From contig CALCOY010000008.1 in NCBI GenBank assembly GCA_937897325.1, positions 1 through 64,000 of the forward strand: a stretch of DNA of 64,000 nucleotides. The letters are read 5' to 3'. The first letter of the stretch is position 1; each line of letters starts with the position of its first letter. Origin of the DNA: an uncultured Shimia sp. Its GTDB lineage: Bacteria; Pseudomonadota; Alphaproteobacteria; Rhodobacterales; Rhodobacteraceae. The position numbers were made by a program, and so were the translations under genes. Below the pieces are notes generated by a model that was not told the DNA's origin, did not search any database, and saw nothing but the letters and a program-made list of their open reading frames with translations. Below, piece by piece: positions 19,898-27,101 of the stretch.

Positions 19898-20375
19898 CCA
19901 TCATGCCCCGAGATAGGCACGTTCCAGAATTGTACGGAATATCTTGAGTTGGCGAGTAAGCCGTCGAACCGGATGCGGCCTTGCGAGAGCAAATAGTGGC
20001 GTTCGGCGACATCCAGAGTCAATTGTGTGAACTTCTCGATCAGAAGTATACCTGTCTATGCTTCCAAACTTTTGGGACACAGCAACACACTCGTAACGCA
20101 AGATGCGTATCAACGCGCACGGCCTGCCCATGAGAACAGACATCACGCTAGGGCACCTCAAGTAGTCGGCAAGATTCGCTTGGGTTAGTTGAATGTCCAA
20201 ACGCTGCTTCATTAGGCTTCGCGAAACATCTGCGACGTGTTAGATTGGTGGTGTTTTTGTTTAACTCATTTATCTTCGATGCCGCGTTGCCAGCATCCAC
20301 TTTGGATTTGGAGAAATTTTATGGGTCAGGTTCTTGATAGAGTTGCAGCGGTTTCTGCAATTTGAGGAGAACGAA
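19898..20375. other. Gap between the homogentisate cluster and the accessory region
   Basis: No supported gene. A minus-strand frame at 19901-20212 (103 residues) has no recognisable domain and low coding character. From about 20300 the sequence (ending GAGGAGAACGAA) looks like the 5' leader of an IS110-type element. Confidence 0.5.
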
Positions 20376-20506: not shown

Positions 20507-20812
20507 TTATGCGGCGGATTTGCGGTGAAGCAAGCGTCGCGTTTCGTTGGTCTTCTGTTTGATCTTTTCTCGGTGTCTCAGAATGGTTTGTCCGCGTCCG
20601 AAGTAGACCTCGGCCGGGGTGAGGTTCTGCAGGCTCTCGTGGTAGCGCCGGTGGTTGTCGTGGTCGACGAAGGCATTGATCGTTTGCCTGAGAGCGCCAG
20701 GCAGGTAGTGGTTTTCCAGCAGGATGCGGTTCTTCGGGGTCTGGTGCCAGCGCTCGATCTTGCCTTGGGTTTGCGGGTGATACCTTCCGCCCATCGATAA
20801 AGTGCAGGTCAT
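20507..20812 (-). pseudogene. IS3-family transposase (OrfB) C-terminal fragment
   Basis: The 101-residue frame is the end of an rve-type integrase core. It has YHPQTQGKIERWHQT (with the catalytic Glu of DDE), NRILLENHYLPGALRQ, and YNHRRYHES-like DNHRRYHESLQNLTPAEVYFGR. The first two catalytic Asp residues and all of OrfA are missing; the fragment begins abruptly at about 20812 where another small frame starts on the other strand. Confidence 0.8.
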
Positions 20813-20933
20813 GACGCGGCGCGGTCCGCGCTACCGACCGGTTATCGCCCGCAAAGCGCCCAAGGCGTTTGAGGAGTTCCCGCAGTATGCCACGGGAGAA
20901 GGTCTGTTCGTTGAAAAGGGGTTCACAAAATGA
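20811..20933 (+). pseudogene. Possible C-terminal gene scrap beside the IS3 fragment
   Basis: A 40-residue plus-strand frame (ends FPQYATGEGLFVEKGFTK) begins at the IS3 fragment boundary. The ATG may be accidental. It may be the tail of a gene cut by the IS. Family not recognised. Confidence 0.25.
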
Positions 20934-20984: not shown

Positions 20985-21221
20985 TCAGGAAAACCGCGCG
21001 ATGAATTCCTCGCGCAAATCTTCGCTTTCGCTCTGCATGAAAAGACTGTGTTTGTAGAGCGTCTCGGTGCCACCCTTCATGGCGGCTTCTGTGCTCAGCA
21101 TACGCAGCACGTAGGCGACCGTCGCATGATCGAGGCCTGCCATAAGCGCTGTGTCTGCGCGCAGGCTCATATCGTGCAGCAATCCATTCTGAAGTTCAGT
21201 TAAATCCGGGGGTTTTGTCAT
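20985..21221 (-). CDS. Hypothetical protein (78 residues), possibly shortened
   Basis: MTKPPDLTELQNGLLHDMSL starts at 21221; the protein is helical with no recognised domain. It ends IARFS at 20985, while another frame directly after reads PDLDIDALMKGKIARK, so a frameshift may have shortened it. Its start codon shares the CATG tetranucleotide with the plus-strand gene at 21220, so the two cannot have ordinary separate ribosome-binding regions. It belongs to the accessory block with the recombinase. Function unknown. Confidence 0.45.
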   Translation of the reverse strand: MTKPPDLTELQNGLLHDMSLRADTALMAGLDHATVAYVLRMLSTEAAMKGGTETLYKHSLFMQSESEDLREEFIARFS

Positions 21222-21732
21222 GGGGTCTTTCTCCGACGAAATTGATGATAAAAAGCAACTATCTCTTGTACCAGACCACGAGAAATCGACGCAAATTTCG
21301 GATCATGATGAGATGCGTCTGCGCATCGCGGGTCTGCCGAACGAGACCGATCGGGCTGTGTGCGAGGCGCGGCTCGTCAATCTCGAAGAACATGTCGATC
21401 TATCAGCCCGCGCGTACGCAATGGCCGAAGCGCGCTACGTCGATAAGCACGTTGAACCGTTCCCGGAACTAAGGCCGGAGCTGGTTCCAGACAGCCGCAC
21501 TTACGAACAACGGGTTGAGGACGCCAAAGCAGGGTTTGCGCAATCGGAGCGTGGGATAGAGCTCCAGACCATGCGTGACGAGCGCCGCGACAAGCTCTGG
21601 CAAAATCTTGAAACCTTTGTGGATAGTTTTACGCCGGAGAAAGCCGATCGTGACGAGCCCGATCAGAGCGTTGAAATCGACAAGACAACTGATCGGCTCA
21701 ACGTCACGTTTGAGAGGATGACGCGGCACTAG
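21220..21732 (+). CDS. Hypothetical charged protein (170 residues)
   Basis: A soluble, strongly charged, mostly helical protein (MGSFSDEIDDKKQL, then EEHVDLSARAYAMAEARYVDKH, C-terminal TTDRLNVTFERMTRH) with no recognised domain. It is divergent from the 78-residue frame and upstream of the SOS-like promoter of the recombinase operon. Coding character looks genuine over its whole length. It could be a cargo or transfer gene of the mobile element; nothing in the sequence fixes its role. Confidence 0.55.
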   Translation: MGSFSDEIDDKKQLSLVPDHEKSTQISDHDEMRLRIAGLPNETDRAVCEARLVNLEEHVDLSARAYAMAEARYVDKHVEPFPELRPELVPDSRTYEQRVEDAKAGFAQSERGIELQTMRDERRDKLWQNLETFVDSFTPEKADRDEPDQSVEIDKTTDRLNVTFERMTRH

Positions 21733-21768: not shown

Positions 21769-21810
21769 TTGTGAACATATTCCTATTTGTGATATGTTCA
21801 TGGATTGTTC
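21769..21810 (+). promoter_or_regulatory. Promoter with candidate alphaproteobacterial LexA box
   Basis: A -35-like TTGTGA (21769-21774) and -10-like TATGTT (21793-21798) are 18 bases apart. Overlapping the -10 is GTTC-N7-GTTC (21796-21810), the direct-repeat SOS box known for LexA in Rhodobacter and related alphaproteobacteria. An inverted repeat, GAACATAT/ATATGTTC (21773-21799), spans the promoter. It precedes the three-gene recombinase operon, suggesting DNA-damage induction. The match is exact to the half-sites; binding is inferred. Confidence 0.55.
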
Positions 21811-21877
21811 TTTTGCGCCCTTGGGGTGGCGCGAAAGAACTTCACTTCCATCACCCCAATCAGAAAGGAGGTTCAAC

Positions 21878-22225
21878 ATGGACCAACGAAGCGAAAAGAG
21901 GCAACCTCTGACCACCTTGCGCAATTGCGCGCTCAAAGCCACCATCTGGGAAAACGAAAACAATAAAGGCGCGGTGTTCCACACCGTAACTTTTGCCAGA
22001 ACCTACGAAGACAAGGATGGACGTCTGCAAGACAGCCATTCTTTTTCCCGTAGCGAGCTCTTGCGGGTCGCTAAGCTCGCCGACAGGTCGGACGATCTGA
22101 TCGAAGACCGCCGTCGTAAGCTGGCGGTCGAGCGCACACAGGACCAGGCACCGTCCCAGGAGGGACGGTCTGATCGGTTTCACAACCAGTCCTATGGACG
22201 CAATGGCCCGGGCCTGGAGCGCTGA
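21878..22225 (+). CDS. Conserved small protein of the recombinase operon (115 residues)
   Basis: ATG 21878 has a near-perfect Shine-Dalgarno (AGAAAGGAGG, 7 nt upstream) and is preferred over the longer in-frame start at 21794, which overlaps the SOS-like box. The core reads LRNCALKATIWENENN and TVTFARTYEDKDGR, followed by SFSRSELLRVAKLADRS; small proteins with this core often lie beside site-specific recombinases in alphaproteobacteria. The acidic, polar tail is probably disordered. It is the first gene of the operon under the LexA-like promoter. Role unknown; a recombination accessory protein is possible. Confidence 0.65.
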   Translation: MDQRSEKRQPLTTLRNCALKATIWENENNKGAVFHTVTFARTYEDKDGRLQDSHSFSRSELLRVAKLADRSDDLIEDRRRKLAVERTQDQAPSQEGRSDRFHNQSYGRNGPGLER

Positions 22226-22245
22226 ACTGTGAAGACTGACAAGAC

Positions 22246-22271
22246 GAGCGGCGCAAAGCCACGCGCCGCTC
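22246..22271 (+). terminator. Intercistronic stem-loop
   Basis: GAGCGGCGC and GCGCCGCTC form a perfect 9-bp stem around an 8-base loop, between the first two genes of the recombinase operon. There is no T-run, so it is more likely an attenuator or RNA-stabilising hairpin than a full terminator. Confidence 0.4.
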
Positions 22272-22310
22272 TGTCTCTCATTACATATCCGAGCCGGAAA
22301 GGATGCCGCT

Positions 22311-22610
22311 ATGGCTGACGACAATGACGTTAAACTGCACGGGTGCGATGATCCGGACAGGCTCGTGGCGCGCTATGGTGAGTTGCTGGAGGCCTCTACG
22401 CCCGAAGATCAAAAGGCGATCATTCTGCGCGCACTCTGGGTGATAATGCAGGGTTTTGTTGATCTGGGTTTTGATGTTGGTCCTGAGGATAAGTTTCACC
22501 CGAAATGCGACAGCGGCATGAATGAGGTGATAGACTATATTTGTCGCGATGAGATCAATGCAGGTCCAGCGGCACATCCATCACCAACCAGCCGAAAGGA
22601 GCCGACATGA
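22311..22610 (+). CDS. Hypothetical small protein of the recombinase operon (99 residues)
   Basis: Starts MADDNDVKLHGCDD at ATG 22311 with AAAGGA upstream. It is acidic and helical (AILRALWVIMQGFVDLGFDV, residues about 44-63) and has no recognised domain. Its stop overlaps the recombinase ATG at 22607 (ATGA), so the two are translationally coupled. This tight link suggests a partner or regulator of the recombinase; no function can be assigned. Confidence 0.6.
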   Translation: MADDNDVKLHGCDDPDRLVARYGELLEASTPEDQKAIILRALWVIMQGFVDLGFDVGPEDKFHPKCDSGMNEVIDYICRDEINAGPAAHPSPTSRKEPT

Positions 22611-24244
22611 CTGCACCACCAACACAATAACAAGCCGTGATCTACTGCCGTGTCAGTTCCAAAGCGCAGGAAACCGAAGGGCACGGGCTGCAAAGCCAGG
22701 AAACGCGGTGTCGTCAATATGCCGCAGCCAAAGGTTATGCTATTGCCGCTGTCTTTCCTGACATCATTACCGGCGGCGGGGACTTCATGCAGCGCCCCGG
22801 TCTGGTGGCGCTTCTATCGATTCTGGATGCGCAGCCTAACGAAGATTTTGTCGTGATCTTCGACGATCTCAAACGCTACGCGCGGGACACGGAGTTTCAT
22901 CTTCGTCTGCGCCGGGAGATGGAAAAGCGCGGGGCAAAGCGTGAATGTTTGAACTTTAAGTTTGAAGACACGCCAGAGGGCGAGTTCTTCGAAACGATCA
23001 TGGCGGCGCAAGGTCAGCTCGAGCGCAAGCAGAACGGCAGACAAGTGGCGCAGAAGATGAAAGCGCGAATGGAAAACGGCTACTGGATCCACAATGCGCC
23101 CGTCGGATACCGTTATGAGATCATCAAGGGGCACGGCAAGGTGCTGGTCCCGCATGCCCCCTTTGATGAAATCGTGCGCGAGGCATTCGAAGGCTACGCG
23201 TCGGGGCGGTTTCAGACGCAGGCAGAAGTGAAGCGTTTTTTGGAAGGCTTTCCGGATTTTCCGTTCAACAAGAGAGGTCTGGTTCGCCAGCAACAAGTCA
23301 CACGCCTACTGAGCAACTCTGTCTACACGGGACATATTTGCTCTGAGACCTACGGGATCAGTTGGCTCAAAGGCCGCCACGACGCTTTGGTCTCGATAGA
23401 TGTGTTCGACAAAGTACAGAAACGCCGTGCTGGTACGGCGAAGGCCCCCAAACGCGCGAATATCGGCGATGACTTTGCACTGCGCGGTATTGTGACGTGC
23501 GGCGGTTGTGATGTGCCCCTCCGCTCGTCTTTATCAAAGGGACGGTCTAGGTACTATGCTTACTGTCTTTGCCAATCCAAGACCTGCGATGACTATGGCA
23601 AGTCGATAGCGCGGGATCAGATCGAGGGTGAAGTGGGTGCTTTGCTGAAAGAGCTCCAGCCGACGCAAAGCCTGTTTGCAGTTGCCTGTGCGATGTTCCG
23701 AGATTTGTGGAACGCGAGAGCGGAGCAGATGAAAGAGATTCGGAAAGCGACAAAAACCCAGCTTCGCACACTCGAAAGACAAAGGGACAGTATCGTCACC
23801 AGACTCCTAGAGACGAGTGACTCTGCCGTCATATCCGCCTATGAGGAGAAACTCAGCGGGCTTGCAAGAGAGCAGCCGCGGTTACGCGATCAGATCGCCA
23901 ATCAGAGCATCCCAAAAGACAGCTTTGAAGAAAAACTAGAACCGGCCCCGAAATTCCTCGCAAGCCCTTGGAAAATATGGGAAAGTGACAGTATTGATAT
24001 GCGTCGTTTAGTGCTGAAACTGGTGTTTGCGGACCGTATTTCTTACCATCGGGATAAGGGAGATAGAACCGCCGAAACGACATTACTTTTCAAGGCGTTA
24101 AGGGGGTTTTTGACCCCGGAAGTCCCTTTTGGTGCGGTCGAGAAGACTCGAACTTCCACTCCGGTTAAGGAACAGCGACCTCAACGCTGCGCGTCTACCA
24201 ATTCCGCCACGACCGCACGTCTAGGCTTGATGGCAGGGTCATAG
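22607..24244 (+). CDS. Large serine recombinase, with early stop codon and tail running into a tRNA gene
   Basis: A serine integrase/invertase. The resolvase catalytic domain (IYCRVSSKAQE with nucleophilic Ser, FDDLKRYARD, and an E-helix after GEFFETIMAAQGQLER) is followed by a recombinase domain (YWIHNAPVGYRYE), a zinc-ribbon-like region (TCGGCDVPL, later YAYCLCQSKTC) and a coiled coil near residues 370-420. The coupled ATG 22607, with GAAAGGAG before it, is followed after seven codons by TAA (22628-22630). GTG 22637, nine bases on, can restart translation and keeps the catalytic Ser. The last roughly 40 codons read antisense through tRNA-Leu, so the native C-terminus has probably been replaced at the element/chromosome junction. 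Activity is uncertain. Confidence 0.8.
24130..24216 (-). tRNA. tRNA-Leu(GAG)
   Basis: The minus strand from 24216 begins GCGGTCG and ends CGACCGC-ACCA (7-bp acceptor stem, CCA encoded at 24132-24130). The anticodon arm CAGCG-TTGAGGT-CGCTG gives anticodon GAG. A long variable arm (class II, as for Leu) and a T-arm with GTTCGAG follow. It overlaps, antisense, the end of the serine recombinase frame, which marks the likely edge of the mobile element. Confidence 0.93.
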
Positions 24245-25785: not shown

Positions 25786-26439
25786 ATGGAAAATGAACCC
25801 TCCGTAGTCGAGGTCGATATTGTCTCGGACGTGATGTGCCCATGGTGCATCGTAGGCTACAAACAACTCGAACAAGCCCTTGGTTTGACAGGGTTTGGTG
25901 CCCAGGTTCGCTGGCATCCTTTCGAGCTGAACCCGAACATGTCTCGCGAAGGGCAAAATCTGGCTGAGCATATTACAGAGAAGTATGGTGCAAGCCCGGA
26001 ACAATCTGCCCAGAATCGGGAACATCTCAGAACATTGGGGCAAAGTCTCGGAATCACATTCGATTTCTCGCCGGAAAGCCGCATTGTGAATACGTTTGCG
26101 GCCCACCAACTCTTGGATTTCGCACTCAGCCAGGGCAAACAGCATCCCTTAAAGCTGGCCCTGTTCGAGGCACATTTCACGCAGCAACGCGATGTCTCGG
26201 ACCACACGGTACTTTTGGATGTTGCAGCCTCGGTTGATCTTCCGGTCGAGGAGGCACGCGAGGTGCTTGAGACCGGCGCACTTGCCGAAACTGTGCGCGA
26301 AAAGCAGGCATTCTGGACCGAACGAGGGATCTCTGGTGTGCCGTCCATGATCTTTGATGCGAAGTATCTCGTCACAGGTGCTCAAGGCGCCCGAAACTAC
26401 GCCGAAATCCTGCGTCAAACGGTTGCCGAGGCCGCGTGA
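25786..26439 (+). CDS. DsbA-family (FrnE-like) oxidoreductase
   Basis: A 217-residue thioredoxin-fold protein with CPWC (residues about 18-21, in [16 protein letters not shown]), the helical insertion typical of 2-hydroxychromene-isomerase/FrnE proteins, and the cis-Pro loop [10 protein letters not shown] near 182. It has no signal peptide, so it is likely cytoplasmic, acting as thiol-disulfide isomerase or glutathione-dependent isomerase. Its end overlaps the lipB start (GTGA), giving a two-gene operon. Confidence 0.9.
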
Positions 26440-27101
26440 CTGAATGGATCACTACGCCCGGCCTGACGGATTACCGCAAGGCAGAGGCATGGATGGAGGC
26501 GCGGGCCGAGGCGATTGCCGACGGCCAAGCAGAAGAATGTATCTGGCTCCTGGAGCATCCTCCCCTTTACACTGCTGGTACATCCGCAAAGCATGAAGAT
26601 CTCATAGACGACCGGTTTCCAGTCTTTCAAACCCGGCGCGGCGGCCAATTCACGTATCACGGACCGGGACAGCGAATTATCTATGTGATGCTTGATGTGG
26701 CGCGACGCGGACGCGACGTGCGCAGGTTCGTGCACGACCTTGAGGCTTGGGTAATTGCCACGCTTGCGCAATTCAACGTGTCCGGTGAGATCCGCGAAAA
26801 CCGTGTTGGCGTTTGGGTGCAACGTCCAGAAAAGCCTTTATTAAGCAATGGGCTGCCTGCAGAAGATAAAGTCGCTGCGATCGGTATCCGACTGCGCAGA
26901 TGGGTGAGTTTTCATGGGATCAGCATAAATGTCGAACCGGACCTCAGCCACTTTGAAGGGATCGTCCCCTGTGGCATCCGTGACCATGGTGTCACAAGTC
27001 TGGTAGATCTGGGCTTGCCGGTCGCAATGCATGACCTGGACCTCGCCCTCCGCGAGACGTTTGATCAAGTGTTCGCTCAGCCGGTGGAAGCGCGCGGTTA
27101 A
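26436..27101 (+). CDS. lipB: Octanoyl-[acyl-carrier-protein]:protein octanoyltransferase
   Basis: A 221-residue LipB that moves octanoate from ACP to lipoyl domains, the first step of lipoate assembly. Motifs: [10 protein letters not shown], then [14 protein letters not shown] (substrate pocket, residues about 67-80), catalytic Lys in DKVAAIGIR and catalytic Cys in GIVPCGI near 177. GTG 26436 overlaps the stop of the DsbA-type gene and places the family start correctly. Length is normal. Confidence 0.95.

Follow-up and report, generated by a model that had tools for sequence, protein, structure and literature searches.

We analysed a window of 64,000 nucleotides (nt), namely positions 1 to 64,000 of the forward strand of contig CALCOY010000008.1 from an uncultured Shimia sp. 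(assembly GCA_937897325.1), in which a LexA-type box precedes two small genes, here named P115 and P99, and the gene of a large serine recombinase. This region very probably represents the integration/excision operon (P115, P99 and the integrase) of a family of alphaproteobacterial integrative mobilizable elements (IMEs), in a truncated copy that sits at a tRNA-Leu gene. The promoter region of the operon carries the motif of the host LexA, in a box (21796-21810) that is kept in the clade of the window recombinase, and LexA control of the operon is the best reading of this box. The features of the operon, in window coordinates, are the following:

21769-21799, plus strand: putative promoter read by eye, TTGTGA, 18 nt and TATGTT, overlapping the first half-site of the box
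21796-21810, plus strand: LexA-type box GTTCATGGATTGTTC, of GTTC-N7-GTTC form, exact in both half-sites
21878-22225, plus strand: P115, the first open reading frame (ORF), 115 amino acids (aa), with its ATG 82 nt after the box begins
22311-22610, plus strand: P99, an ORF of 99 aa, predicted helical, directly upstream of the recombinase
22607-22630, plus strand: stretch in the recombinase frame, opening with an ATG that overlaps the P99 stop as ATGA (22607-22610)
22637-24244, plus strand: ORF of the large serine recombinase (integrase), with a GTG start, running antisense through the tRNA-Leu gene
24100-24129, no strand: predicted attachment-site arm on the side of the element, made up of the 30 nt that precede the CCA end of the tRNA, from the alignment of 58 junctions
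24130-24216, minus strand: tRNA-Leu(gag), the target gene, intact by ARAGORN

The box, the two small ORFs and the recombinase ORF downstream are present as the first-pass annotation had described them. Counts of the box alone, in the window or in the genome, do not set it apart from chance, and it is conservation that gives the strong evidence. The window holds four matches to GTTC-N7-GTTC against 2.0 expected, and 14 of 100 shuffles gave a count as high. A search of 390 genomes from the order for the recombinase, with a threshold of E 1e-60 or better, located it in 63 of them, at 79 places. A set of 67 loci was assembled from the window, 57 of the 78 other places, three loci reached through P115 and six taken from named records (Sulfitobacter, Notoacmeibacter, Martelella, Roseibium, and metagenome-assembled genomes of Aestuariivita and of the Rhizobiaceae group). 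The 21 places left out, many of them truncated or of low ranking, include the partial copies C7 and C40 of the window's own genome; the P115 search had given ten places, from which G125 C4, G125 C8 and G151 were added, and the named-record search nine loci, three of which, at 20-23% identity, were left out. Within 1000 to 250 nt upstream of the recombinase, GTTC-N7-GTTC was detected on the operon strand in 35 of the 67 loci. The controls on the same 67 stretches gave 0 for the reverse orientation and 2 and 4 for the backwards pattern, spacers of 3-6 and 8-14 nt were found in 0-2 loci each, and a first-order Markov control produced a mean of 0.47 and a maximum of 3 in 100 rounds. Moreover, T prevails at positions that were no part of the selection pattern (94% at -1, 94% at +8 and 89% at +10, before the second half-site), and boxes with one mismatch were found in two further loci, L017 and L055. 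On a quick tree of the recombinases, the clade of the window (Shimodaira-Hasegawa-like approximate likelihood ratio test, SH-aLRT, 99) comprises 23 loci, 19 of them with an exact box and two with a one-mismatch box; the remaining two are L019, with a contig cut short, and L057, rearranged upstream. The expectation that the box is kept wherever the operon is holds in this clade but not in the wider family, as discussed below.

A box of the same form precedes lexA and recA of the host SOS system. In the window's own genome, GAACATGTCTAGAAC was found before lexA and GAACCAAAGAGGAAC before recA. In a sample of 30 genomes, 26 with a boxed operon and four without, all 30 had GTTC-N7-GTTC in the 300 nt upstream of the lexA match, and 29 had it likewise before the recA match, the exception being G310, one of the four genomes without a boxed operon; the backwards control was found before lexA and recA in 0 and 4 of the 30 genomes. 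This form agrees with the alphaproteobacterial LexA motif given in the available portions of two publications (PMC8565304, PMC3323433). The earlier supposition that the host LexA recognises this very motif agrees with these matches.

Two observations on the promoters and boxes stand apart from these results. A TAGGA..TCCTA palindrome, possibly a second operator, was seen by eye in some of the boxed promoters, where it stands between the -35 region and the LexA-type box (L063, L065, L067, L068, L085, L102, L105, L109, L113 and L018; in the window the right half only, TTCCTAT). In L110, a strong box, ATGTTCTTCTTTTGTTCGCAT (score 28.9), lies about 4.9 kb upstream of the recombinase on the minus strand, before another gene, which is perhaps another SOS gene.

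The position of the recombinase points to its role. In 58 of the 67 loci ARAGORN detected a tRNA gene in convergent orientation to the recombinase, with 0-35 nt separating it from the end of the aligned recombinase, and these tRNAs belong to six isotypes (Thr 18, Leu 17, Arg 8, Ala 6, Tyr 5 and Ser 4) with 15 anticodons. The distance to the CCA from a motif conserved towards the end of the recombinase gene is 34-36 nt in 53 of the 58, the other five being one group without the motif, and the recombinase stop is never found before the tRNA (25 inside it, 33 beyond it). As the recombinase stands head-on at the CCA end with near-constant spacing, it would be an integrase with its attachment site at the tRNA 3' end. 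Excision or inversion had been proposed for it; this position points to integration and excision instead, the analysis of invertible segments having been confined to a repeat search.

In Pfam, the window recombinase matched Resolvase (PF00239, 2.4e-24, 86.5 bits) and, following this catalytic domain, Recombinase (PF07508, 3.8e-5, 24.3 bits), both over the cut-off, and scored 19.3 bits against the zinc beta ribbon PF13408, with a cut-off of 25.3. Its best NCBIfam matches are XisF of the fdxN element (1.9e-22) and CcrB of SCCmec (4.8e-21), but it is a member of neither, with 79.9 and 75 bits against cut-offs of 375 and 900. An origin as a typical phage or plasmid gene was considered and rejected, since the matches listed are distant: one relative at 24% in IMG/VR, 38 matches in phage records (22.7-29.9% identical among the matches listed), and two partial matches in plasmids (34.5 and 35.8%). 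As to the arrangement of family members, two recombinases lie about 17 kb apart on one strand in G302 (C1:1043904-1062344), the first ending at a tRNA-tail-like sequence and the second at a tRNA-Thr, as is expected for tandem elements at one site. In G573 (C25:2302-2704), three 25-26-nt copies of a tRNA-Leu 3' end, spaced by about 104 nt, are found beside the full tRNA gene; these are perhaps repeated attachment sites.

One member of the family, in genome G250, could be delimited, and its sequence describes a mobilizable element with defence cargo, its own integrase, a relaxase and defined ends. Its near junction reads CGCACCA/TTCTTC, a second GCACCATT is located about 22 kb away, and the ends are 8-nt repeats. 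The flank beyond the far GCACCATT is the sequence that directly follows the tRNA in the genus mates G337 and G263 (identities of 94% over 33 nt and 89% over 35 nt), and a search of 91.5 kb of G250 found it once. Colinearity with the mates resumes about 9.9 kb past the far repeat of G250, a point that in the mates themselves is about 10.0 and 10.1 kb from the tRNA; in the 10 kb between, the content of G250 differs from theirs. Inside the element are genes for a MobA/VirD2-type relaxase, MobC and VirD4, together with those of a cyclic oligonucleotide-based anti-phage signalling system (CBASS; DncV-like cyclase, E1-E2, JAB and HNH-SAVED), and none of the ten proteins scanned with Pfam matched a mating-pore family. 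Across the joined ends, the integrase was computed to be 46 residues longer in the circle, for this one case and with the crossover assumed in GCACCATT. In the family at large, a VirD4/TraG-type gene is found within 8 kb upstream in 40 of the 67 loci.

P99 is the most constant companion of the recombinase, with a homolog directly upstream of it in 62 of the 67 loci, window included, and degraded traces visible by eye in some of the other five. P115 homologs were found upstream of the recombinase in 15 of the 67 loci, again counting the window. Both proteins had been called uncharacterised, and they keep that status: P99, aligned as 53 sequences drawn from the 62 homologs and that of the window, gave no match in Pfam or NCBIfam and none worth naming in the PDB, with a marginal match (0.006) to PHROG in one of the 53 members, and P115 gave none in Pfam or NCBIfam. 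The model of P99 is small and helical, and that of P115 has four strands and a long helix. A Pur-alpha-like nucleic-acid binder was considered for P115 and dropped, the similarity being too weak (best Z 5.4, best Foldseek E 0.2).

Other neighbours recur in parts of the family. At L056:3002-5622 and in its relatives, two neighbouring genes (275 and 339 aa) are found upstream of the operon, in 16 and 11 of the 67 loci; the 339-aa protein contains an HELNH motif and marginally matches Lit (1.2e-5 in PADLOC). In G125 C4, the 88 nt at 21591-21678, with a strong inverted repeat, are 96.6% identical to the matching place in G125 C8, although the two are otherwise diverged elements of one genome; this stretch is a candidate origin of transfer (oriT) or RNA element.

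The window copy itself stops to the left of the operon, where the features are these:

20507-20812, minus strand: transposase fragment with an integrase core domain, rve_3 (Pfam PF13683, 1.1e-11), the left break of the remnant
20780-20930, plus strand: C-terminal tail of a VirD4/TraG-type coupling protein gene, by tblastx to G125 C8 and C4
20985-21221, minus strand: ORF of 78 aa; in G125 C8 a homolog (38% identical over 73 aa by tblastn) lies next to the operon
21220-21732, plus strand: ORF of 170 aa, with homologs in 4 of the 67 loci, window included

Homology to the G125 C8 element begins at about 20780, in the virD4 tail beside the transposase fragment. By tblastx without summed statistics, this tail matches G125 C8 with 59% identity (39 aa aligned) and G125 C4 with 43% (37 aa aligned), there near the end of a 541-aa ORF, and its Pfam identity was taken from another member of its cluster. 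The 78-aa and 170-aa ORFs have no match in Pfam or NCBIfam. The 13 TGGTG[CG] sites up to 24140 were examined for the far end and none was convincing, and comparison with 13 regions of relatives did not reveal an empty site of the tRNA-Leu: on its 5' side most of them keep the ORF of window positions 26436-27101, which we take to be lipB-like, and a few keep the peptidoglycan-binding gene; on its 3' side the matches were weak and confined to a window ORF with matches in other places as well. The copy is not a complete element, as it stops in the virD4 tail and no far end was recognised. Between a MarR-type gene and the remnant there is also a short ORF (20027-20188, LLGHSN..TQDAY), which presumably resembles the C-terminal part of a tyrosine recombinase.

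Within the operon, the details are mixed. The overlap of the box with a promoter -10 was proposed in the first-pass annotation and can be seen when TTGTGA and TATGTT are read by eye, but a consensus scan listed no plus-strand promoter at 21769-21799. Likewise, the genes were said to be joined by coupling, which is true for P99 and the recombinase, with their ATGA overlap, but not for P115 and P99, with a gap of 85 nt. The frame opened at the ATGA is closed after 7 codons by a TAA (22628-22630), which leaves GTG 22637, 7 nt past the TAA, as the fallback start. Among the N-termini of the 67 loci, no other stop was seen between a plausible start and the YCRVS motif (the frameshifted L019 is not judgeable).

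These details bear on the rather probable alternative that the window box is a relic and the window operon non-functional, whatever its role in relatives. The interrupted start of the coupled integrase, the virD4 gene cut off beside a transposase fragment, the lack of a recognised far end and a box score below the median all favour it; yet P115, P99 and the recombinase from GTG 22637 to 24244 are uninterrupted reading frames, the box has two exact half-sites, and re-initiation at the GTG so close to the stop is possible. In any case, with virD4 cut off and the integrase start interrupted, the copy is probably an immobile remnant whose promoter box survives, and the description of a small inducible mobile system is doubtful for it.

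Several observations weigh against the wider reading of a LexA-controlled integrase operon that serves mobilizable elements. The window's genome contains 184 matches to the box and 195 to the backwards pattern, and the box of the window scores low among the 35 (18.7, with a range of 16.8-31.6 and a median of 26.5). No box is present in 29 of the 67 loci, 19 of these in one clade, so LexA control would be a property of part of the family and not of the whole. A complete tRNA was not detected by ARAGORN in nine of the 67 loci, nor did Rfam call a tRNA in these nine; by eye, their junctions start with a tRNA-tail-like TGGTG or TGGCG, as expected for an integrase that abuts another element's end or a broken tRNA. 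The recombinases of L061, L065 and L069, otherwise full-length, have one internal stop each, in all cases TAG. Moreover, the far end was fixed for the G250 element only, and attempts on G302, G269 and the window failed: the empty site of G302 was unusable because most genus mates have a tRNA-Leu(tag) different from its own, and for G269 no genus-mate flank match was found within about 110 kb. The 33-nt flank of G250 occurs twice in G263 and could therefore be a repeat.

The box could also be the operator of a repressor encoded by the element, its likeness to the SOS motif being fortuitous or mimicry. The loci without a box, which show that regulation is not uniform, would agree with this, as would the T-rich spacer of the boxed operons, unlike the spacers at lexA, and the palindrome in several promoters, which hints at another regulator. 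However, the exact 7-nt spacer is that of the lexA and recA boxes of the hosts and of the published motif, as far as the consulted parts of PMC8565304 and PMC3323433 go. By gene clusters the boxed loci share only P99 and the recombinase, and no candidate repressor stands out since no other gene is common to them (P99 was not assessed as a repressor); we regard this explanation as improbable. Even less credible, and indeed very improbable, is that the recombinase is a passenger and that another integrase placed the elements at tRNA genes. It is true that tRNA 3' ends are a usual target of tyrosine integrases, and that serine-recombinase IMEs are described, in the accessible part of a review of the subject (PMC5704250), as inserted within genes; but it is the serine recombinase itself that is found at the junction, with a near-fixed distance between its last conserved codons and the CCA in 53 of 58 junctions and over six isotypes.

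According to the preferred reading, that of an integration/excision operon under LexA, LexA would hold the promoter closed, as the box overlaps the putative -10 region. RecA would be activated by DNA damage or by the entry of single-stranded DNA during conjugation, and LexA would be removed, upon which integrase and P99 would be made. SOS induction by either route has been reported in other systems, to go by the portions available of PMC9927553 and PMC8191803. The integrase would then recombine the element at the tRNA 3' end, so that a newly arrived circle integrates or a resident element excises, and the excised element would be mobilized by its own relaxase and coupling protein, with P99 as a putative accessory or directionality factor. 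A still broader combination of claims is put forward tentatively and is unlikely to hold in every part: a serine integrase family that targets tRNA 3' ends and leaves the tRNA intact, with C-termini that sense its state, with LexA gating about half of its members and with P99 as a new directionality factor. As the integrase frame crosses the attachment site, the C-termini would differ between the integrated and the circular forms, a possible built-in sensor of state. In the roughly half of the family whose operon would be gated by the host LexA, the arrival of conjugative single-stranded DNA would itself switch the integrase on.

Known systems share parts of this arrangement. In SXT/R391 and ICEBs1 the element's own repressor is the switch, whereas here a LexA-type box is located directly at the integrase operon. 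IntI, the integron integrase, is a tyrosine recombinase that shuffles cassettes, unlike the serine integrase described here, which would move a whole element. Both cases are nonetheless similar in their link to the SOS response: SXT/R391 and ICEBs1 are SOS-linked conjugative elements with mobility tied to DNA damage (excerpts of PMC4542580 and PMC11841131), a tie predicted here from the box, and intI, like the present gene, encodes a recombinase and is apparently controlled through a host LexA box, its control by LexA being described in the part of PMC3108266 that was at hand. The serine-recombinase IMEs of Firmicutes (Tn4451 and the streptococcal elements), which are inserted within genes and for which the accessible text of PMC5704250 knows no directionality factor, have in common with the present family a single large serine recombinase, relaxase and coupling genes, and short end repeats (here in G250); they differ from it in that the present family occurs in alphaproteobacteria, at tRNA 3' ends, with a small partner gene as a constant feature and with a LexA-type box before roughly half of the operons. 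Insertion at a tRNA 3' end with the tRNA left intact is shared with the tRNA-seated islands of tyrosine integrases (PMC5704250, PMC12884075, in the sections available), but here the recombinase is of the serine type and the G250 repeats measure only 8 nt. A search of mostly open literature, which included the available parts of PMC11476347, PMC13386836 and PMC12884075, gave no account of alphaproteobacterial serine integrases that target tRNA genes and are controlled by LexA; island databases lay outside its scope, and catalogued copies of these elements may exist there.

Serine integrases with a conserved tRNA end as natural target would be of use as tools. If our reading is true, it raises the question of whether the SOS response serves integration on arrival, excision on damage, or both. 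Moreover, the DNA-damage sensor of the host would be tied directly to the integrase of mobilizable elements, one of which, that of G250, carries an anti-phage CBASS, in a family with integrase homologs in 63 of the 390 genomes.

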